Origin: Rufibacter roseolus
Lineage (GTDB): Bacteria; Bacteroidota; Bacteroidia; Cytophagales; Hymenobacteraceae
Reading direction: 5' to 3'
Assembly: GCF_017916365.1 (NCBI RefSeq)
Contig: NZ_JAFMSU010000003.1
Location: forward strand, 248,001 to 312,000
DNA: 64,000 nucleotides
Shown here piece by piece: positions 29,896 through 38,626 of the stretch. Position 1 is the stretch's first letter, and every line of letters starts with the position of its first letter. Both the position numbers and the translations under genes were made by a program. The notes under the pieces are model-generated. The model made no database searches. It was not told the DNA's origin and worked only from the letters and a program-made list of their open reading frames with translations.

Positions 29896-29928
29896 TTTTG
29901 CTATATAAGGACCTGATTTCTACCTTAG
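29896..29928 (+). promoter_or_regulatory. Candidate promoter of the M14 peptidase leader
   Basis: TTTTG at 29896-29900, 20 nt spacing, then TACCTTAG at 29921-29928. This is one base from the Bacteroidota -7 consensus at the usual distance. Transcription would start just at the 5' strand of riboswitch stem P1. Confidence 0.5.
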
Positions 29929-29930
29929 CC

Positions 29931-30044
29931 CTGAAATTATACCGAAGAGGGGAGAGAGCAGGCTCTGAGAACCTCTAGCAACCGTTAACCAAGTTAAAAA
30001 GGTGCTAACTCCTGCCCAGCCAAATGGGAAATATAAGTTTTCAG
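29931..30044 (+). ncRNA. S-box (SAM-I-like) riboswitch upstream of the M14 peptidase
   Basis: All architectural parts of an S-box RNA can be drawn. P1: CTGAAA-TTATA (29931-29941) with TATAA-GT-TTTCAG (30032-30044). P2: AGAGG (29946-29950) with CCTCT (29972-29976). P2b: GAG/CTC hairpin whose loop AGCAGG (29957-29962) can form a pseudoknot with CCTGC (30011-30015). The conserved AGCAACC follows, then P3 TTAAC-CAA-GTTAA, then the conserved AAGGTGCTAA, then P4 CCCA/TGGG. The copy at 38523-38626 keeps the unpaired conserved bases and changes P3 on both sides, supporting the fold. Ligand SAM is inferred from the core. Confidence 0.75.
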
Positions 30045-30047
30045 ACC

Positions 30048-30146
30048 ATGCTCAGCAGCCACCACCTTTCCAACGCAAATCTTCTTTCGTTATCTACTGC
30101 TTCAGGCTATTCCGTTGCCTGTATGCACTCTTGTTGTTGCTGTTAG
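30048..30146 (+). CDS. Leader peptide ending Cys-Cys-Cys-Cys (copy 1)
   Basis: A 32-codon ORF starting 3 nt after riboswitch stem P1 and ending M-H-S-C-C-C-C-stop, with codons TGT TGT TGC TGT TAG. The other S-box leader (38423-38515) has a 30-codon ORF at the same position ending M-Q-A-C-C-C-C-stop with the identical last five codons, while the rest of the peptide differs. Conservation of only the start and the Cys run is what a cysteine-sensing leader peptide would show. There is no Shine-Dalgarno sequence, as usual in Bacteroidota. Function as an attenuator is inference. Confidence 0.65.
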   Translation: MLSSHHLSNANLLSLSTASGYSVACMHSCCCC

Positions 30147-30186
30147 GTTCCTTAGACATTCCGGGCTCCCGGGCATCTATCCTTCT

Positions 30187-30212
30187 GCGCTGACGCAGCG
30201 CTCTTCTGTTTT
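30187..30212 (+). promoter_or_regulatory. Candidate attenuator hairpin, M14 leader
   Basis: A 6-bp stem GCGCTG / CAGCGC with a 3-nt loop (30187-30201), followed by the T-rich TCTTCTGTTTT. It begins 41 nt after the leader-peptide stop codon. It is weaker evidence than the equivalent in the susC leader. Confidence 0.35.
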
Positions 30213-30239
30213 CTAGCTACTTTTTCAGTTTTACTCTTT

Positions 30240-30419
30240 ATGTACACGGCACTTGCGCAGGCAAGGGCAAAGAAACCGGCGTTTGCCTGGGGTACTTCTT
30301 TGCACGCCTGCCTCTCCTCTACCCTGGCGGCGCTTTGTCGCTTCCTCTCTCTTTGCTGTTGCGGCATCATTATTCCTCGCCGCTACGCTTTTAACCCATT
30401 TTTTGAAAATCACCCTTAA
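30240..30419 (+). CDS. Possible second leader ORF with a Cys cluster (copy 1)
   Basis: A 59-codon ORF ending 6 nt before the peptidase ATG. It contains L-C-R-F-L-S-L-C-C-C-G, with three Cys codons in a row at 30354-30362. These lie 222 nt after the first Cys run, nearly the same spacing as in the susC leader (220 nt). Unlike the susC copy, the ORF continues beyond the cysteines. It could couple translation to the peptidase gene. Coding is uncertain. Confidence 0.35.
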   Translation: MYTALAQARAKKPAFAWGTSLHACLSSTLAALCRFLSLCCCGIIIPRRYAFNPFFENHP

Positions 30420-30425
30420 AACACC

Positions 30426-33032
30426 ATGAAATCATCCTTACAATTACACAGGGCGCTTCTGGTCCTGGCCGCCTGGGTCCTGACCCTTGTTCCGGCCCTG
30501 GCGCAAAGCAGCTATTATTTCCCGAAGACGAAGAACTTTGACGCCGCTATTCCCACGCCTGAGCAGTTCCTGGGCTACGGCATAGGCGAGCGCCACAGTC
30601 GCTATGAACAATCGGTGGCTTACCTCAAAGAGTTGGACCGACTCTCCGACAAAGTGAAAGTGCAGACCATCGGGTTTACCTATGAACTGCGCCCGCAGGT
30701 GGTGGCCATTATCACCTCGCCCGAGAACCACGCCCGCCTGGAAGACATCCGGAAAGAGCACCTGCAGCTAGCCGATGTCTCTAAACCACTGCCCAACCTG
30801 GCCAACGCACCGGTGTTCGTGAACCTGGGCTACAGCGTGCACGGCAACGAGGCCTCCAGCCTGGAAGCCTCCCTCCTAACGGCCTACTACTACACCGCCA
30901 ACCAGGACACAGAAACCCAGCGCGCTTTGAAAGAAGCGGTGATTTTGCTCGATCCTGCCCATAACCCCGATGGCCGCGACCGGCACGCCAACTGGATCAA
31001 TGTCCACCAGAGCGACCCTTCAGTAGCAGACCCCGCCGATTGGGAACACAACGAGGTATGGCCCGGCGGCCGCGGCAACCACTACTGGTTTGACCTGAAC
31101 CGCGACTGGTTGCCCATCGCGCACGTGGAAAGCAGAAACCGCCTCAAATTCTACCATGAGTGGCTCCCCAACGTGGTCATTGATTTCCACGAGATGGGCA
31201 CCAACTCCACCTACTACTTTGAGCCCAGCAAACCCTACGGCTCCGAGAACTACCTGGTGCCCCGCAGCACCTATGACAACCTGAACGTGATCATCGCCAA
31301 GTACCACGCCGCCGCGCTGGACGAGATCGGGTCTCTTTATTTCACCAAAGAGCAGTACGATAACATTTACCCCGGTTACGGCTCCACCTACCCCGATTTC
31401 CAGGGGGGCGTGGGCATCACCACCGAGCAGGCCAGCTCGCGCGGTAACCGCCAGGAGAATTCCACCGGCGTGCTGACCTTCGCCTTCGGAATCCGGAACC
31501 ACCTGAGCACGGGGCTAGCTACAGTGAAAGGAGCCGTGGAGAACCGCGAGACCTTCCTCAAACACCAGCGCGAGTTCTATAAATCCGGCATCGCCGATGG
31601 CCGCAAGAATCCGGTGAAAGCCTATGTGTACGGCGAGAAATACGATGCCACGCGCCTGCGGAATTTCACCGAACTGCTGCTGGCCCACAAAATTGAGGTA
31701 TATGAACTGCCCGGCAACCAGACCATCAACGGCACCGCCTTCGAGAAAGGGAAATCCTTTGTAGTGCCCACTGAGCAGCCGCAATACCGCTTGGTAGAGT
31801 CTATCTTTGCCAAAAACACAAACTTACCCGACAGTGTGTTCTACGATGCCTCCACCTGGACCCTGGCCCTGGCATATGGTCTGCCGCACGTGGGCGCCAC
31901 TAAACCCGTGAACCGCGGAAACAAAGTAACGGCCCTGCCTTCCCTTTCCGCCACTGCTCCGCCCAAAAGCAACTACGCCTACCTCCTGGACTGGACGGAT
32001 TACAACACCGCCGGCGCCTTGTACCAACTGCAATCCTTAGGCGTAACCGCTCAAACCGCCTTGAAGCCTTTCACGGCCAACACCACAGCGGGCGCCAAAG
32101 ACTACTTGCCCGGCGCCATCACCATTCCGGTGGCCTCGCAGAAAATCTCGTCTGACTCGCTGTACAAAGCCATCCAGAAAGTTGTCGCAGACCGCCAAAT
32201 CAACATCACCGCGGTGAACAGCGGTTTCAGCGCCAAAGGCATTGACCTGGGTAGCAGCAACATCCAGACCATCCGGAAACCCGAGGCTCTGATGCTGGTA
32301 GGCACCGGCGTGCAAGGTCCGGAGGCTGGCGAGGTGTGGTTCTTGCTGGATTCTCAGCTGAAGATGCCCATCACCAAAGCCGAGTTGAGTTCTTTCCCGC
32401 GCCTGTCTTTGGCCCGTTACAATACCATCGTGCTGGTAAGCGGCGCCTACAACAGCCTGGACAAAAACACTGTGGACAAACTGAAGCGCTGGGTTACCGA
32501 GGGCGGCACATTAATCACCTTCAAAACCGCCTCTGAGTGGGCCATCAAACAAGGCATCGCGAATGCCCGCCTTCTCTCCCCTGCTGATACCGCCGCTAAA
32601 ACCGTGCGCCAGGATTACATCAACGCCCGCGAACTCGAAGGCGCCAAATCGGTAGGCGGCTCTATTTACGAGACCGACCTGGACATCACGCACCCGCTGG
32701 CCTTCGGCTACACCTCCCGCAAACTGAGCGTGTACCGCAACAGCAACGTGTTCCTGGCACCCAGCAAAAGCTCGTATGAGACCGTGGCCCAATACACCGC
32801 CAATCCTTTGCAAAGTGGCTACGTGTCCAAAGCCAACCTGAAGAAAATCGCCAACTCCGCTTCGCTCTTAGCGCAGAACCAAGGCCAGGGCACAGTGGTC
32901 CTCTTCGCGGATAACCCCAACTTCCGGGGAAGCTGGTACGGCACCAATCGCCTGTTCTTCAACGCCCTGTTCTTCGGCAACATCATTAAAACCGTTGGCG
33001 GTGTGCCTGCTGGTGCGGAGGAAGAGGAATAA
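30426..33032 (+). CDS. Exported M14-family zinc carboxypeptidase
   Basis: An 868-residue periplasmic or secreted metallopeptidase. The signal peptide (about 1-26) ends in PALAQ. The M14 domain (about 55-390) has zinc ligands His139 and Glu142 in HGNEAS and His255 in VIDFHEMG. It also has the substrate-binding HNPDGRDRH and FDLNRDW segments and a probable catalytic Glu334 in GITTEQAS. The C-terminal half resembles a glutamine-amidotransferase-like fold without a recognised active site. It would release amino acids from peptides. Its mRNA carries an approximately 380-nt leader with an S-box and poly-Cys ORFs, suggesting induction when sulfur amino acids are short. Confidence 0.9.
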   Translation: MKSSLQLHRALLVLAAWVLTLVPALAQSSYYFPKTKNFDAAIPTPEQFLGYGIGERHSRYEQSVAYLKELDRLSDKVKVQTIGFTYELRPQVVAIITSPENHARLEDIRKEHLQLADVSKPLPNLANAPVFVNLGYSVHGNEASSLEASLLTAYYYTANQDTETQRALKEAVILLDPAHNPDGRDRHANWINVHQSDPSVADPADWEHNEVWPGGRGNHYWFDLNRDWLPIAHVESRNRLKFYHEWLPNVVIDFHEMGTNSTYYFEPSKPYGSENYLVPRSTYDNLNVIIAKYHAAALDEIGSLYFTKEQYDNIYPGYGSTYPDFQGGVGITTEQASSRGNRQENSTGVLTFAFGIRNHLSTGLATVKGAVENRETFLKHQREFYKSGIADGRKNPVKAYVYGEKYDATRLRNFTELLLAHKIEVYELPGNQTINGTAFEKGKSFVVPTEQPQYRLVESIFAKNTNLPDSVFYDASTWTLALAYGLPHVGATKPVNRGNKVTALPSLSATAPPKSNYAYLLDWTDYNTAGALYQLQSLGVTAQTALKPFTANTTAGAKDYLPGAITIPVASQKISSDSLYKAIQKVVADRQINITAVNSGFSAKGIDLGSSNIQTIRKPEALMLVGTGVQGPEAGEVWFLLDSQLKMPITKAELSSFPRLSLARYNTIVLVSGAYNSLDKNTVDKLKRWVTEGGTLITFKTASEWAIKQGIANARLLSPADTAAKTVRQDYINARELEGAKSVGGSIYETDLDITHPLAFGYTSRKLSVYRNSNVFLAPSKSSYETVAQYTANPLQSGYVSKANLKKIANSASLLAQNQGQGTVVLFADNPNFRGSWYGTNRLFFNALFFGNIIKTVGGVPAGAEEEE

Positions 33033-33170
33033 TGCACTGTATCTCCCTTGTATTCCTGAAAGGATTTTGGTAGCGAACGGCAATAATGCTTACTAATCGC
33101 CTCTCTAGCTTGCCATAAGACCCTTTCAGGATAACAGAAGGGGAATTGGTTTGTACTTCTATCTTAAATG

Positions 33171-33202
33171 AAAGCGGCTACCAAAAGGTAGCCGCTTTTT
33201 TA
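33171..33202 (+). terminator. Terminator of the M14 peptidase gene
   Basis: A 12-bp perfect stem (AAAGCGGCTACC / GGTAGCCGCTTT) with loop AAAA, then a T run. Confidence 0.85.
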
Positions 33203-33239
33203 TTGCTGTTCTGATGATAAAAGATTGTACAGCATTCAT

Positions 33240-33560
33240 CATTCCTTTTTCACGTATTCCGTCCCCCGTTGAAGGGGTAGGGGGATGACAAGGCGGTTCT
33301 TGTGTCAACTGCTCTTGCTACAGAAAGGCGACAGGGCAGAAAGTCATCTCCTACTCAGAAAGGGCAACCACAAGGGATTGCCCCTACAGTTTAGGAATGA
33401 CATAATCAGCACGAGTAATCATCCCCCTACCCCCTTCAAAGGGGGACGGAATGCGTGCTAATTTTATTACCTATTTCTATATCCCTCCCTATGGTTCAAG
33501 TTTTCAACTTGGACCTACCATGACCTGAAGTTTGCAACTTCAGTGAGGCGCAAGCCTCAA
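33240..33560. repeat. Cluster of dispersed intergenic repeats
   Basis: A CCCCCGTTGAAGGGG element (about 33260-33288), a GGGCAACC...GGGATTGCCC element (33362-33389), a reversed CCCCCTACCCCC element (about 33421-33452) and the double-hairpin module CAAGTT/AACTTG plus CTGAAGTT/AACTTCAG (about 33493-33560). All are also found elsewhere in the window. It lies between the convergent peptidase and SusD genes. Confidence 0.65.
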
Positions 33561-33640
33561 ACCAGACAACTGATAAAATAACAATCCCTCCCCTTTTAAG
33601 CCCATTTTCCCAAAAACAACCTCAAAACATCAACAAAAAA

Positions 33641-33674
33641 GAAAAGGAGTACCGCTTCTGCGGTACTCCTTTTC
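33641..33674 (-). terminator. Terminator of the SusCD operon
   Basis: A 15-bp perfect stem (GAAAAGGAGTACCGC / GCGGTACTCCTTTTC) with loop TTCT, followed by a T run on the minus strand, 22 bp beyond the SusD stop. Confidence 0.88.
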
Positions 33675-33696
33675 ACATGCAAAGGAAAAATTACAA

Positions 33697-35076
33697 TTAA
33701 TACCCGGGGTTCTGGTCTTCTGGTCCCAAGTCTGGGTCTGCGACGATGTCAGCGTTGGGGATGGGGTACAGGAACTTGTTGGGGTCCGTGATGCCCAGGA
33801 CGGCTTGGGCACGGCCGGTGCGGATGAGGTCAAACCAGCGGTGGCCTTCAAAGGCGAGTTCCAGTTTGCGTTCCTGCTCAATGGCCAGCAACAACCCAGG
33901 AGCATTCAGCAAGGTCAGTTTCTCAACGCGGGCTCTCTCCCGAATGGCGTTCACATCGGCTAGGGCACCTACCAGGTTTGGAGCGGCTTTCTTCACGCGG
34001 GCCTCGGCACGGATGAGGTACTGCTCAGAGATCCGCAGAAGAAACGCTGGGTCATCGCTGGTGCCATTACGGAAGTATTTTTTGCCGTAGACAATGGTGC
34101 CGGAGGTCCCGATGAGGATGCTGCGGGCGCCGCCCACGGCCGGATTGCGCAATTCGCTGGTGATGGTCTGACCAGGAATCCATTCCAAACGGCCACCGCT
34201 GGAGCTGGGCAGCCAGTAAGAGGCGTGGCTGTTGCCGTTGGCAGTGGTGTAGGCCAGTTCCAGAATGCTTTCGGGGGTGAGCAGGCCCTGGATGGTTTGC
34301 TCATATGGATACACCAGCTGGGCCTTCTTCGCGTCAATCACCTTGGTGGCGTAGTTCTCGGCCTCAGTCCAGTTCTCCTGGTAGAGGTAGAAGCGGGCTT
34401 TCAGGGCCCACACAGCCAGCAAAGAAGCGCGGGCGGGTGTAGTGTAGGAAGCGCCGACGGCGCCGTTCTCCACCGCGGTGAAAAGTTGTTCGGCCTGGTT
34501 CAGATCAGACAGCACCTGGGCGTAGGTTTCGGCTTTCGTGGAGCGGCCGATGCCTTGTCCGTCCAGTTTAGATTCCGTGGGCGTGAGAACCAGTTGGGCA
34601 CCGCCCCAGGCCCGGGCAATGTCAAAGTAGGCAAGGCCGCGCAGGAAGTGGGCTTCCGCCAGTGTGCTTTTCCGCAGGTTCTCGGTTAAGGCTGGGTCCT
34701 TGATGGCCGGTACTTTGGCAATGAGGTTGTTAGCCAGGTTGATCACGCGGTAAATCTGACGCCAGGTACTCAGGATGGAGCTGTTCTCTGACTGGATGCC
34801 GTTGCGGTCAAACTGCCGGTAGAAGTCAAAAGACCCGATGGACTCCGCCTCGTCTGAGGACAGGTAAGACAAAGCCGGGTAATCCAAGCCGTAGTAGTTG
34901 TTGCTTTGAAGCTCGCTGTACGTGCCTAACAGGGCGGCCTGCGCACCGCGGGCATCTACCAAGGCGGTGGAAGACAAGACTTCGGTGGCCGGGTCCGGCT
35001 CCAGCAAATCGCAACTGGAGAACAGAACGGCGGCGGCTAAGACAAAGGTTTTATAGGAAGTTAGAATATTTTTCAT
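33697..35076 (-). CDS. SusD/RagB-family nutrient-binding lipoprotein
   Basis: A 459-residue outer-membrane lipoprotein. The lipobox is LFSSC with Cys22. The body has TPR-like helices (AEAHFLRGLAYFDIARAWGG, ARASLLAVWALKARFYLYQ) and the C-terminal SusD signature RKLELAFEGHRWFDLIRTG near residue 420. It is the lid of the SusC channel and captures ligand at the cell surface. It starts 11 bp after susC ends. There is no glycoside hydrolase, sigma/anti-sigma pair or sulfatase beside it. With the S-box/Cys leader, this suggests a peptide or sulfur-compound ligand rather than a glycan. Confidence 0.94.
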   Translation of the reverse strand: MKNILTSYKTFVLAAAVLFSSCDLLEPDPATEVLSSTALVDARGAQAALLGTYSELQSNNYYGLDYPALSYLSSDEAESIGSFDFYRQFDRNGIQSENSSILSTWRQIYRVINLANNLIAKVPAIKDPALTENLRKSTLAEAHFLRGLAYFDIARAWGGAQLVLTPTESKLDGQGIGRSTKAETYAQVLSDLNQAEQLFTAVENGAVGASYTTPARASLLAVWALKARFYLYQENWTEAENYATKVIDAKKAQLVYPYEQTIQGLLTPESILELAYTTANGNSHASYWLPSSSGGRLEWIPGQTITSELRNPAVGGARSILIGTSGTIVYGKKYFRNGTSDDPAFLLRISEQYLIRAEARVKKAAPNLVGALADVNAIRERARVEKLTLLNAPGLLLAIEQERKLELAFEGHRWFDLIRTGRAQAVLGITDPNKFLYPIPNADIVADPDLGPEDQNPGY

Positions 35077-35087
35077 GGCTGGTTTTC

Positions 35088-38000
35088 TTAGAAAGTAACA
35101 TTGGCACCTATCTGGAAACTTCTGGGCTGCGGCACCACGGCGTGGTCAATTCCCAGCACGTTCTGGTTGTTCGCGGCCACGTTCACCTCAGGGTCAAGGC
35201 CGCTGTAGTTGGTGAGCGTCCAGAGGTTGGTGGCCAGGGCGTACAGGCGCAGGTTAGAGATTTTGAAACGGTTCACCAGCTCGGTAGGCACGTTGTAGCC
35301 CAGCGTGATGGAGCGCAGGCGCAGGAAAGACCCGTCTTCCAGGTAGCGGCTGCTAGGCAGGGTGTAGTTGTTGCCTCGTTTGGTCAGGCGCGGCACATCG
35401 GTGATATCGCCGGGTTTCTGCCAACGGTTCAGCTGATTTGGGAAGAAGGTGATGCCGCTCTGGGTACCGCCGTGTTCCATAAAAAAGCGGTTCAGGTTGA
35501 TGATGTCGTTTCCGGCCTGAAAATACAAAAGTGCCCCCAGATCGAACCGTTTGAAGCGCACGGTGTTGTTCAAGCTCCCGAAGAAATCCGGTGCGCCGTT
35601 GCCCAGAATCTTGCGGTCGGCGGTGGTGATGGTGCCGTTTTTGTCTACGTCATCGTACACGGCATCGCCGGTCTGCGGGTCTACATACAGCTGGTCATAC
35701 ACCCAGAAAGCGAAGAGCGAGTTGCCCTGTTCCATGCGCACCCAGTCGCGGGAGTGGGCGGTAATAGGTGTAGGCAGTTTCTCGATGCGGTTCTTGTTTC
35801 TGGCGATGTTGAAATCAGTGGACCACTGGAAATCGTCTTTCTGGATGTTCACCGAGGAAATGCTCAGCTCCACCCCTTTGTTGCTCACTTCGCCCAGGTT
35901 CTCATACACGCTGGAGTAGCCCAGCTTGGAAGGCACCGGCACTTGAATGAGCAGGTCTTTGGTGTATTTGCTGTAGTAGTTGGCCTCCACTTTAATGCGG
36001 TTCTGCAGGAACGCTAGGTCCAAGCCCACGTTCCACTGGCGGGTGGTTTCCCAGGTCAGATCGGGGTTGCCTAACTGGCTCGGGCTGATGCCGGGGTTGT
36101 TCTGGTAGTTTCTACCGGCTCTCCACAGGCTCTGCGAAGGGAAATCGCTGATGCCGTTCTGGTTACCAGACAACCCGATGTTGGCGCGCAGCTTGATCTG
36201 GTCAAACGGCAGGTCTTTCGCGAACGCCTCCTCTGAGACAATCCAGGACGCTCCTACTGATGGGAAGTAGCCCCATTTGTTACCCGCGGCAAACTTAGAG
36301 GAACCGTCGGCGCGTAGGCTCCCGTCCAGGCTGTATTTGTCTCTGAACGTGTAGCTGGCCCTTCCGAAGAAAGACACCAAGCCGTTCTGGCTCGAAGAAG
36401 TGCTACCCGTCTGGATGGAAGAAGAAGCTATTTCCTGGAAATTATCGCTCGGAAACTTCTGGCCCGAGAGAGTCAGGAAGTTGTATTTGGTGCTTTGGAG
36501 GGTATTTCCCAAAATTAGGTTCAAACGGTGGTCATCTCCCAAGGCTTTGTTGTAGGTCAAGACCTGCTCGTTAATCAAAGTCACCAAGCTGGATTGCGTG
36601 TTGCTGCCGTTCCCGGCCGGAAGACCTACACTGATCTGGGTGTTGTTGTAGACTTTGTCAATGTAGCTGTTGTAGTCCAGGCTCCAGCTGGATTTGAACG
36701 ACAAACCCGGCAGGATCTCGTACTCGGCGTACAGGTTCCCGATGAGGCGGTTGCTGTGCCCCTGGATGTTCAGGTTCTCAATAAGCGCCAAATGGTTGTC
36801 AAAGATGCTGTGGCGGGCGTAGCTGCCGTCCTCGTTGAACACGGGCAGAAACGTCTGCACGTACAAAGACGAGTTGATCACGCCCTGCGCGCTGTTATCG
36901 TTGCGGCTCACATTTCGGTGGCTGTACGCCCCCGAGGCACTGATGCCCACCGTCAGTTTCTCGCTCAGGTTATGGTCAAAGTTGAACCGACCGCTGAAGC
37001 GCTCAAACTGGGCAGGTTTCACAATCCCCTCCTGTGAGAAATAACTGCCCCCAATAAAGTACCGGCTTTTGTCTGACCCACCCGAGGCCGACAAGTCATA
37101 GCTCTGGGTTTTGGCGGTCTGGAATACATCCGGGATGCGGGAATAGGTGGTCTGCTCCTCGGGTAAGCCGCGGCCTCCTTCAGCTTTCGGGCGGAACGGA
37201 CGCGCCGCGAAAGCGCCGCCATCGTTCAGGAAGGCCTCGTTGATGAGTTCGGCTTCCTGCTGGGCATTCACCGTTTCATAAAGCTTAGGCGCCTTGGCCC
37301 AGCCGAAGTACGTCTGGAAACTGATCTTGGAACCCGCATTCAGTTTGCCGCGCTTCGTGGTGATGAGCACCACCCCGTTCGCTCCCCTGGACCCGTAAAT
37401 GGCCGTGGCGTTGGCGTCTTTCAGCACCTGGATGCTCTCAATATCCGCGGGGTTCAGATCCGCCAGCGGGTTGAAGGTCTGCCCACCCAGGCCAAGGTTG
37501 CTCAATGACTGGTTGTTGATGAACACGCCGTCAATCACATATAAAGGAGAGTTGCTGGCATTGATGGAGGTGGCCCCGCGCACACTCACGCTGATACCAC
37601 CTCCCGGCGCGCCGCTAGCCGAGGAAATCTGCACCCCGGCGGCTTTTCCCTGAATCAGTTGGTCCGGAGAAGTAACCGGCAAACCCCGCAGGTCTTCCAC
37701 GTTCACGGTACTCACCGAGCTGGAAACCGCCCGCTGCGACTGAGTTCCGTAACCCACCACCACAATCTCGTCCAGGCTTTTGGTGTCTTCTTTGAGCACC
37801 ACATTTACGGTGGTTCCGTTCACCACAATCTCTGCGGATGTACACCCGATGCTGGAAAACACCAGGGTCTGGCCTTGTTTTGCAGGGATAGAATAACGCC
37901 CCTCGGCGTTGGTGAAGGTGCCGCTGGTAGTGCCTTTCAGGACCACGCTTACGCCGGCCAGGGCCTCATTTCCTTTGGTGCCGCTCACCTGCCCGGATAC

Positions 38001-38099
38001 CGATTGGCCCTGGGCAAAAGCAGCATGGGTCAGCAATATTGCTAATAATACCCCTAGACTTACTAGACTTTTTAGAGTACTACTTATATATGTTTGCAT
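35088..38099 (-). CDS. SusC/RagA-family TonB-dependent outer-membrane transporter
   Basis: A 1003-residue TonB-linked transporter. Signal peptide about 1-29. A carboxypeptidase-regulatory-like (CarboxypepD_reg) domain lies at about 33-108 (VSGQVSGTKGNEALAGVSVVLKG). The TonB box and SusC signature are around DEIVVVGYG, then the plug domain (about 125-240, with NATAIYGSRGANGVVLITTK) and a 22-strand barrel. No N-terminal STN domain, so no direct sigma-factor signalling is expected. It pairs with SusD. The approximately 540-nt 5' leader carries an S-box RNA and two Cys-run ORFs. Confidence 0.95.
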   Translation of the reverse strand: MQTYISSTLKSLVSLGVLLAILLTHAAFAQGQSVSGQVSGTKGNEALAGVSVVLKGTTSGTFTNAEGRYSIPAKQGQTLVFSSIGCTSAEIVVNGTTVNVVLKEDTKSLDEIVVVGYGTQSQRAVSSSVSTVNVEDLRGLPVTSPDQLIQGKAAGVQISSASGAPGGGISVSVRGATSINASNSPLYVIDGVFINNQSLSNLGLGGQTFNPLADLNPADIESIQVLKDANATAIYGSRGANGVVLITTKRGKLNAGSKISFQTYFGWAKAPKLYETVNAQQEAELINEAFLNDGGAFAARPFRPKAEGGRGLPEEQTTYSRIPDVFQTAKTQSYDLSASGGSDKSRYFIGGSYFSQEGIVKPAQFERFSGRFNFDHNLSEKLTVGISASGAYSHRNVSRNDNSAQGVINSSLYVQTFLPVFNEDGSYARHSIFDNHLALIENLNIQGHSNRLIGNLYAEYEILPGLSFKSSWSLDYNSYIDKVYNNTQISVGLPAGNGSNTQSSLVTLINEQVLTYNKALGDDHRLNLILGNTLQSTKYNFLTLSGQKFPSDNFQEIASSSIQTGSTSSSQNGLVSFFGRASYTFRDKYSLDGSLRADGSSKFAAGNKWGYFPSVGASWIVSEEAFAKDLPFDQIKLRANIGLSGNQNGISDFPSQSLWRAGRNYQNNPGISPSQLGNPDLTWETTRQWNVGLDLAFLQNRIKVEANYYSKYTKDLLIQVPVPSKLGYSSVYENLGEVSNKGVELSISSVNIQKDDFQWSTDFNIARNKNRIEKLPTPITAHSRDWVRMEQGNSLFAFWVYDQLYVDPQTGDAVYDDVDKNGTITTADRKILGNGAPDFFGSLNNTVRFKRFDLGALLYFQAGNDIINLNRFFMEHGGTQSGITFFPNQLNRWQKPGDITDVPRLTKRGNNYTLPSSRYLEDGSFLRLRSITLGYNVPTELVNRFKISNLRLYALATNLWTLTNYSGLDPEVNVAANNQNVLGIDHAVVPQPRSFQIGANVTF

Positions 38100-38205
38100 T
38101 TGTATAAAATAATAAAGACAAGATGATTCTTACACGGCCTCAGGACGACACCGGTGATTCTTTTAACAGAAGTAAAAAGAGGATTTTAATGCCTCGAATC
38201 CTGTA

Positions 38206-38331
38206 TCAACAACAGCACATTCGGGCGAAGGTGGGCATGGCACCCATGGCTAGGGCAGCGGAATAAGTGTGGAAGGATGTTCCGGCGGGAACATAGTTCT
38301 CCGGGGAAGAGAAGGGTAAAGAATGGTCCAT
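38206..38331 (-). CDS. Possible second leader peptide ending Met-Cys-Cys-Cys (copy 2)
   Basis: A 41-codon ORF ending R-M-C-C-C-stop (ATG TGC TGT TGT TGA) 106 nt before susC. Its Cys run lies 220 nt after the first Cys run of the same leader. In the peptidase leader a Cys triplet lies at 222 nt. An ATG directly before the Cys codons would also allow a minimal M-C-C-C peptide. Low-evidence coding call, supported by the repeat of the pattern. Confidence 0.4.
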   Translation of the reverse strand: MDHSLPFSSPENYVPAGTSFHTYSAALAMGAMPTFARMCCC

Positions 38332-38345
38332 AATGAACTGAGTTT

Positions 38346-38417
38346 GAAAAAAAGAAGACAAAAGCGCGCATCACCGCAGGGTGAACAAGGCTACGCCAGG
38401 AAAGATGGAGGTGATGC
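38346..38417 (-). promoter_or_regulatory. Candidate ribosome-controlled attenuator, susC leader
   Basis: GCATCACC (38410-38417) can pair perfectly with GGTGATGC (38368-38375), followed by GCGCTTTTGTCTTC and a run of seven T. The 5' arm begins 6 nt after the stop codon of the tetracysteine leader peptide, inside the footprint of a ribosome held at the Cys codons. An alternative 5-bp local hairpin TCACC/GGTGA shares the 3' arm. Stalling for lack of Cys-tRNA would mask the 5' arm and allow read-through. This is inference from geometry. Confidence 0.5.
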
Positions 38418-38422
38418 CAGCT

Positions 38423-38515
38423 CTAACAGCAACAACAAGCCTGCATAAGCAGGATCTGCCGGGACGCAGGATGGTTGTTAGTAGTAAGGCGGGTGTTCAA
38501 ACGCTGTAAGTGCAT
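38423..38515 (-). CDS. Leader peptide ending Cys-Cys-Cys-Cys (copy 2)
   Basis: A 30-codon ORF ending M-Q-A-C-C-C-C-stop with codons TGT TGT TGC TGT TAG, identical to the last five codons of the peptidase leader. The start context ACCATG is also shared; a further in-frame ATG is 6 nt upstream. It begins 3 to 9 nt after riboswitch stem P1. Between start and Cys run the two peptides are unrelated, so selection seems to act on the Cys run and its position. Confidence 0.65.
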   Translation of the reverse strand: MHLQRLNTRLTTNNHPASRQILLMQACCCC

Positions 38516-38522
38516 GGTCATT

Positions 38523-38626
38523 AATTTATAGTTCCCAAAAATGGGCAGGTGTTAGCACCTTTTCGGCGGGGCCGAAGGTTGCTAGAGGGTCCTGGAGCCT
38601 GCTCTCTCGCCTCTTCTTTATAAATC
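38523..38626 (-). ncRNA. S-box (SAM-I-like) riboswitch upstream of susC
   Basis: Read on the minus strand. P1: ATTTATA (38625-38619) with TATAAAT (38530-38524). P2: AGAGG (38614-38610) with CCTCT (38588-38584). P2b: GAG/CTC with loop AGCAGG (38603-38598) complementary to CCTGC (38549-38545). Then AGCAACC, P3 TTCGGC-CCC-GCCGAA, conserved AAGGTGCTAA, and P4 CCCA/TGGG. P3 and P1 differ in sequence from the copy at 29931 but pair in both, which is covariation. The match to S-box architecture is good; SAM binding is inferred. Confidence 0.75.

Follow-up and report, generated by a model that had tools for sequence, protein, structure and literature searches.

A SAM-I riboswitch joined to a polycysteine leader in Rufibacter roseolus and its relatives: a putative two-input sulfur leader

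The stretch of DNA considered here (the window: 64,000 nucleotides of Rufibacter roseolus, of the family Hymenobacteraceae in the Bacteroidota order Cytophagales; contig NZ_JAFMSU010000003.1, positions 248,001 to 312,000) carries on its forward strand an S-adenosylmethionine (SAM) riboswitch of the SAM-I (S-box) class with an extended P1 helix (29931–30044), a 32-codon leader open reading frame (ORF1, 30048–30146) that ends in four cysteine codons and a stop, and the gene for an M14 zinc carboxypeptidase (30426–33032). The aptamer and the Cys-ended ORF, with its frame and its position just behind P1, recur together at many loci in related bacteria, where they are linked to sulfur genes. Placed in series as they are, the two parts probably form a two-input sulfur leader, in which a SAM-I aptamer is followed by a sensor of Cys-tRNA.

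The riboswitch matches Rfam family RF00162 at 29934–30039 on the forward strand with 76.4 bits against a gathering threshold of 44.4 (E-value 3.7e-16), and all 108 model positions are aligned. An earlier annotation made from the letters alone, hereafter the sequence-only reading, had described an S-box-like fold at this place and had named a search with the Rfam SAM covariance models as its check; the fold is borne out by this match, well above gathering, and both P1 and the pseudoknot can be read from the sequence. By eye, the P2 loop CAGG pairs with CCTG after P3, and the metH aptamer of the same genome carries TAGG/CCTA in their place, with both sides of the pseudoknot changed. Judging from its family, the aptamer at 29931–30044 would bind SAM. 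The minimum free energy (MFE) structure predicted by RNAfold for 29931–30044 contains an 11-bp P1 (29931–29941 with 30034–30044) whose final base, 30044, lies 3 nt before the ORF1 start codon at 30048; the sequence-only reading's spacing of three nucleotides after P1 thus holds for the extended helix but not when counted from the Rfam P1 end, from which the start codon is 8 nt away. Upstream, a weak candidate hairpin (29914–29939, forward strand, MFE −3.3 kcal/mol) could compete with the 5′ strand of P1.

ORF1 translates as MLSSHHLSNANLLSLSTASGYSVACMHSCCCC, in agreement with the 32 codons and Cys-rich end first read from it, and its frame is kept in orthologs. The consecutive Cys codons TGT TGT TGC TGT (30132–30143) occupy positions 29–32, the stop codon follows at 30144–30146, and an in-frame ATG at 30024, within the aptamer, would extend the ORF to 40 codons. 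Among four M14 leaders (L002, L094, L098, and L100), the only indels in ORF1 are of 3 and 6 nt. Conservation of the Cys run was another point on which the sequence-only reading was open to challenge: the run ends as CCCC in L002, L098, and L100 and as CCYC in L094, and a polyCys ORF stands behind 87 of 209 SAM loci. A chance origin of ORF1 is unlikely, because the arrangement recurs at other loci and all ORF1 indels in the M14 leaders are multiples of three.

The M14 gene begins 279 nt past ORF1, and the interval is itself structured. A small hairpin, TCCGG/CCGGG, follows the leader stop on the forward strand (30160–30173), and its sequence, TCCGGGCTCCCGGG, is identical in all four M14 orthologs. 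An intrinsic-terminator-like hairpin, GCGCTG-ACG-CAGCGC (30187–30201), with a T-rich tail reaching 30212, comes next; all four M14 leaders carry it in the form GCGCTG-NNN-CAGCGC, 38–40 nt past the leader stop. Then comes ORF2 (30240–30419, forward strand), a small ORF of 59 codons with an internal CCC, which shows no indel in the four orthologs and stops 6 nt upstream of the M14 ATG in each of them; its third Cys is Trp in L098. The ratio of nonsynonymous to synonymous changes (N/S) in ORF2 is 0.53 of neutral (24 synonymous and 35 nonsynonymous single changes across the four M14 leaders). The peptidase itself, of 868 aa on the forward strand, matches PF00246 with 49 bits and is probably secreted, a signal peptide being readable at its N terminus. 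ORF2 and the terminator-like hairpin, together with a second riboswitch in the window that has polyCys ORFs of its own, go beyond what the sequence-only reading described.

The pairing of fold and short Cys-ended ORF was sought in other genomes. RF00162 is present in 99 of 100 genomes drawn from the family, 112 of 148 from the order, and 167 of 198 from the phylum. In all, 213 SAM loci were fetched and 209 analysed (the motif gave no orientation for L156, L157, and L198, and L169 did not have the length needed); the sample is non-random, consisting of best-scoring loci and 120 hand-chosen places with near relatives kept, and all fractions given here are fractions of that sample. A leader was scored where an ORF of 15–75 codons begins 0–20 nt past P1 and has at least three Cys among its last eight residues. 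By this rule, a leader is present at 87 of the 209 Bacteroidota SAM loci, whereas the controls gave 8 of 4180 (dinucleotide shuffles), none of 624 (shifted windows), and none of 209 (reverse complements). CCC occurs within the last eight residues of 82 of the 87 leaders, and the last residue is Cys in 64. Leaders are found at four of five loci in the genome itself, at 16/30 and 42/60 in the two family sets, at 10/28 and 14/37 in the order sets, at 1/19 in the class draw, and at none of the 30 best matches in the phylum. Four loci whose Cys runs fall below the cut-off (L138, L139, L145, and L146) were scored as misses; their runs are internal or split, and the position of the run can thus drift.

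Named genomes were also scanned with a sequence pattern, which picked out 102 stretches; a script recognised both SAM core and polyCys ORF in 39 of these and not in the other 63. The 39, which partly overlap the analysed SAM loci, include Pontibacter, Rufibacter, Sabulibacter, Chryseolinea, Ohtaekwangia, Fulvivirga, and Salegentibacter, as well as metagenome-assembled genomes labelled Cyclobacteriaceae and Flammeovirgaceae. Rfam was run on 18 stretches, 16 of which belong to the 39, and each proved to hold a SAM riboswitch with a polyCys ORF behind it. Among the 63 script-negatives, the cut-offs missed real leaders (L230 and L289 shown, L227 probable); many others, in genes or phyla with no evident relation, seem to be chance matches.

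The position of the leader relative to the aptamer is nearly fixed. In 73 of 87 leader loci, the start codon lies 7–10 nt past the Rfam P1 end, and in 75 the P1 helix ends 3–9 nt before it. A frame test independent of ORF calling points the same way: of 84 loci that have a start codon (ATG or GTG) at +6 to +12 and a run of three TGY codons within 200 nt, 83 have the run in frame, one third being expected; two more loci have the run and lack a start codon there. An ORF of 20–60 codons starting at +6 to +12 is found at 79 of 87 leader loci versus 20 of 126 others. P1 is also longer here, with a mean of 2.3 outer pairs in leader loci (n = 87) versus 0.9 in other loci (n = 123). Placement of the ribosome-binding site inside the 3′ strand of P1 is a published SAM-I mechanism (PMC2258182), and the spacing and the longer P1 fit SAM gating of leader translation.

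A hairpin upstream that could pair with P1 is offered as a lead only: it might be the SAM-free fold that completes the switch. Such an anti-P1 hairpin (at least four expected pairs) occurs in 0.77 of the 87 leader loci versus 0.376 of shuffles, and outside the genome's own family in 0.80 of 25 leader loci versus 0.547. Elsewhere the corresponding fractions are 0.44 of 121 non-leader loci versus 0.357 shuffled and 0.36 of 45 metH loci versus 0.41, and a locus's own upstream sequence pairs better with P1 than one borrowed from a locus of another P1 class (score 4.7 versus 3.3). Many leader loci (L005, L045, and L053 among them) share a recurrent AAGTCAA-loop-TTGATTT hairpin about 32 nt upstream of P1; it overlaps the P1 5′ strand, is a possible anti-P1, and is enriched in leader but not metH loci. 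Promoter boxes of the form TAnnTTnG are not enriched at −25 to −6 in leader loci (10/87, versus 12 in a control stretch), where such sites cluster at about −41 to −35; non-leader loci have 35/121 at −25 to −6, versus 7 in the control.

Which genes stand behind the leader is far from uniform. The gene metY encodes a Met/Cys sulfhydrylase, and it is the commonest sampled target; the peptidase context emphasised by the sequence-only reading is real at this locus but not peculiar to it. Sorted by gene class, leaders precede all 10 ATP-grasp loci, 42 of 76 metY loci (42 of 80 by a wider motif than that of the main count), none of 44 metH loci, and 34 of 64 loci of an unsorted class; they were found at 0 of 8 cystathionine gamma-synthase-like and 1 of 7 metX-like loci (L045). 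L045 and L217, both metX-like (alpha/beta hydrolase by Pfam), combine a SAM riboswitch with a CCC leader and so depart from the general absence of leaders before Met-only genes. For metY, the leader is present at 1/1 loci in the genome itself and at 10/10 and 12/12 in the family sets (20 of these 23 with CCC), at 9/13 and 9/14 in the order sets, at 1/5 in the class, and at 0/25 in the phylum. Pfam names, among the unsorted leader loci, a phosphoadenosine phosphosulfate (PAPS) reductase (L021), a sulfite/nitrite reductase (L114), an amino-acid permease (L031), members of a Na+/H+ antiporter family (L025 and L155), an HPP membrane protein (L171), and a TonB plug (L124); the ATP-grasp and NhaC-like proteins went unnamed in protein-family searches, their scores being below NCBIfam cut-offs. 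The tie to Cys or sulfur metabolism is direct for the metY, cysH, and sulfite-reductase loci and putative for M14 and SusCD. Between gene classes, as judged by eye, the N termini of the leader peptides (23–51 residues) are unlike, while start position and Cys tail are kept; that the N termini look unrelated speaks for a sensor that ribosomes read and weighs against a peptide with a function of its own. In 37 related pairs pooled from 13 chosen groups, the N/S of ORF1 is 0.52 of neutral (133 synonymous and 198 nonsynonymous changes).

The R. roseolus genome shows how the two modules are distributed. Of its five SAM riboswitches, four have a short Cys-ended ORF starting at most 13 nt past the Rfam P1 end, with the endings QNRCCC (ATP-grasp), CCCC (M14), MQACCCC followed by a second ORF in RMCCC (susC/susD), and CCCCR (metY, an O-acetylhomoserine/O-acetylserine sulfhydrylase by TIGR01326), each before its stop; behind the fifth, that of metH, no polyCys ORF was found. 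Searching the genome for four Cys codons followed by TRR gave 16 matches: five TGG (not stops), the two leaders of the window, six without an in-frame start codon, two with a start that look unrelated or too short to judge (L324 and L326), and one further clear polyCys ORF, just upstream of cysH and without a SAM core motif (G000:C1:1545783, L319). This cysH leader, of 22 codons and MVYSSHIKRMRFCCCSSCCCCC type, occurs in 14 of 14 genomes of the genus with a cysH match (16 searched; L332–L345) and ends 73–82 nt upstream of the aligned cysH start; no Rfam family reaches gathering at these 14 loci. A polyCys leader standing alone on cysH fits a Cys-tRNA sensor. Outside the genus but within the family, both modules stand before cysH-type genes (L021, identified by Pfam; L115 and L135, identified by likeness). 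The modules are therefore separable, SAM without polyCys being found on metH, polyCys without SAM on the cysH of the genus, and both on metY and others.

SAM gating, stalling for want of Cys-tRNA, and the direction of the response are what we infer from these sequence features. With SAM bound, the extended P1 would close to 3 nt from the leader start and, on this geometry, block ribosome entry, leaving the gene off. With SAM low and Cys-tRNA ample, the leader would be translated in full, the ribosome would depart, and the gene would be attenuated. With both SAM and Cys-tRNA scarce, the ribosome would halt at the Cys run beside the stop and prevent the RNA behind the leader from ending transcription or blocking translation, so that the gene would be on; expression would thus be maximal when SAM and cysteine are both low. 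The scheme also requires that an untranslated leader leave the gene off, because SAM would otherwise induce the genes for its own synthesis. The SAM-gated, Cys-reading leader proposed in the sequence-only reading appears supported in this form. On balance, though with somewhat less confidence than for the two-input leader itself, SAM-I aptamers in Cytophagales may gate a Cys-tRNA-reading leader as a serial two-input gate across a sulfur regulon, its modules dealt out separately: as part of that proposal, SAM alone would act on metH, Cys alone on cysH, and both on metY, permeases, SusCD, and the peptidase.

This serial arrangement has to be weighed against simpler ones. Many of the sampled SAM loci have no leader (122/209, including 44/44 metH), and some Cys runs are short or broken: five of the 87 leaders lack CCC (L011, L094, L111, L112, and L161), among them the M14 ortholog L094 with its CCYC. 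Both facts would suit a system in which only the SAM riboswitch regulates, translation of a leader peptide of any sequence is enough to open the gene, and the Cys codons fix a constant level of output or survive as a relic. The retention of CCC in 82/87 leaders, the in-frame run at 83/84 loci, and the stand-alone polyCys leader on cysH make this unlikely, however. The occurrence of each module alone, SAM without polyCys on metH and polyCys without SAM on cysH, would equally suit SAM and Cys signals that act independently, either being sufficient and P1 exerting no control over leader translation; this too is improbable, as the near-fixed start at 7–10 nt in 73/87 loci and a P1 extended towards it look as if initiation were being controlled. 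The strong likeness of the MVYSSHIKRMRFCCCSSCCCCC-type peptide across the genus (14/14), together with the pooled N/S below neutral, could indicate instead that the ORF encodes a functional Cys-tailed small protein, binding metal or thiols and itself SAM-regulated. Against this stand a Cys tail that is what the gene classes share (by eye), peptides of 23–51 residues with unlike N termini, a position tied to riboswitch and sulfur genes, and N/S values in the M14 and SusCD leaders that are not below neutral, so that a working protein is very improbable.

The step after the leader is where the two-input reading is least complete, and several results count against it. A general intrinsic terminator was sought but found no support outside the M14 leaders (a strict hairpin with T-tract in 16 of 87 post-leader regions versus 30 of 435 shuffles). 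Nor is there support for a common switch in the form of a hairpin close to the stop, since pairing at +1 to +12 is at or below shuffles nearly everywhere. The regions past the stop are as a whole more stable than shuffles (mean z −1.35, n = 87), and pairing exceeds them at about +26 to +40, but these 87 regions yielded neither a common element nor an antiterminator. Added to these on the same side are the five leaders without CCC, the pooled N/S, which uses related, overlapping pairs and is driven mainly by the ATP-grasp group and one metY group, and the M14 (9 synonymous, 30 nonsynonymous) and SusCD (8 and 28) groups, which do not fall below the neutral N/S of 2.9. The anti-P1 hairpin is weak or absent in the M14 orthologs, with a score of zero in L098 and L100. 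An argument from physiology also weighs on this side: should every shortage of methionine call for metY, a gate that opens only on a double deficit would carry a cost, unless transsulfuration fills the gap. The ORF2 stop 6 nt before the M14 ATG in 4/4 orthologs and the lack of a general terminator would also accommodate post-leader control by translational coupling or re-initiation, from leader to ORF2 to M14, in place of transcription attenuation. This is a possibility of some substance but still doubtful: a terminator-like hairpin with T-rich tail stands at 30187–30201 in 4/4 M14 orthologs, and the metY loci listed no second CCC-bearing ORF, ORFs without CCC not having been looked for there. 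For the two-input leader, then, the terminator-like hairpin may be the off-switch at M14, to which ORF2, 6 nt before the gene, may add translational coupling, while at other loci the off-switch is possibly Rho-dependent or translational.

A second SAM-I riboswitch lies on the reverse strand of the window (38523–38626; RF00162, 74.3 bits against a gathering threshold of 44.4). Its polyCys leader ORF (38423–38515, reverse strand) reads MHLQ...MQACCCC before the stop; an earlier in-frame ATG exists at 38521, but L095 and L099 share the ATG equivalent to 38515 and have TTG at the earlier start. A tandem second polyCys ORF follows on the same strand (38206–38331, MDHSLPF...FARMCCC), an RMCCC-ending ORF being present in 4/4 orthologs. 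Behind it, also on the reverse strand, are a SusC/RagA TonB-linked outer-membrane transporter (35088–38099; TIGR04056, 880.9 bits, cut-off 368.25) and a SusD-family lipoprotein (33697–35076; PF07980, 86.2 bits). Tandem polyCys ORFs between SAM riboswitch and gene are seen at this SusCD locus and at L003, L095, L099, L101, L124, and L125, the last two from another genus; the gene behind them is SusC-type except in L125, where the first long ORF is an NhaC-like antiporter. The M14 and SusCD riboswitch units are convergent neighbours within 30426–38626 of the window, and three further genomes of the genus (G027, G042, and G045) likewise have two SAM riboswitches, spaced by about 9 kb, with M14 and SusCD genes. 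The M14 peptidase and SusCD probably form a peptide- or sulfur-scavenging set. A short intergenic repeat, also present downstream in L003, occurs at about 27400, 27560, and 33430 of the window; it appears as 'HPPTPFKGG' or its kin in listed ORFs and is a palindrome like CCCCCTTCAAAGGGGG.

Each part of the leader has precedents. With SAM-I riboswitches at large (RF00162), it shares the full covariance match, the core and pseudoknot, and the sulfur genes downstream in relatives, but the start codon that P1 faces here belongs to a polyCys leader ORF and not to the gene. Mycobacterial polycysteine ORFs are reportedly leaderless, to go by the title of a 2020 study by Canestrari; ORF1, by contrast, begins behind a 106-nt aptamer, which is taken to be transcribed. 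The polycysteine leaders of Mycobacterium, Propionibacterium, and Bifidobacterium are likewise short ORFs with a Cys run near the stop and lie before sulfur genes; as far as the available text of PMC1262725 goes, the mycobacterial ones are without conserved terminator hairpins, and no SAM riboswitch is described for these Actinobacteria, whereas the leaders considered here belong to Bacteroidota and are often joined to an aptamer. The Cys codons of uORFC-8-2, an upstream ORF of cysS in Rhodobacterales, are also thought to sense Cys-tRNA, but in the accessible part of PMC8632094 it has two Cys codons at about positions 14–15, an intrinsic terminator, and no riboswitch, and it belongs to another phylum; at the present locus, the gene is M14 and four Cys codons occupy positions 29–32.

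Two inputs in one leader are also known from elsewhere. The mgtA leader of Salmonella couples a riboswitch-type signal to aminoacyl-tRNA supply through the short ORF mgtL, but its inputs are Mg2+ and proline, and the portion of PMC6460261 at hand shows neither a SAM aptamer nor an ORF start beside an aptamer P1. A Xanthomonas SAM-I riboswitch has a second, tRNA-related input, uncharged initiator tRNA; there, however, the RNA binds the tRNA directly, and the text available from PMC7270179 mentions neither leader peptide nor Cys. The metE leader of Bacillus clausii joins two inputs in one sulfur leader as tandem SAM-I and adenosylcobalamin (AdoCbl) riboswitches, but there both inputs are aptamers and act independently (PMC2258182). 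For flavobacteria, a transcriptome study (PMC9723704) speaks in general terms of leader-peptide attenuation of amino-acid operons, and no leader like the present one was found in the portions available of three surveys (PMC3766115, PMC2211319, and PMC9971707). No description of the pairing of aptamer and polyCys leader was found in the open-access literature, subscription papers lying mostly outside that search, so a prior description is possible.

While the parts are known, their joining, of a SAM aptamer to a polyCys leader, is thus apparently a new element so far as open-access literature goes. Through this pairing, the uncharacterised SusCD, ATP-grasp, and M14 peptidase genes would become likely candidates for a role in sulfur acquisition, and the split between genes yields predictions: metH should respond to SAM only, cysH to Cys only, and metY to both. 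The leader also offers a natural test case for serial RNA logic, in which SAM would decide whether the cell reads its cysteine level at all. Riboswitches and amino-acid attenuators are usually taken as alternatives; here the two appear to be stacked in one short leader, recurring across an order.

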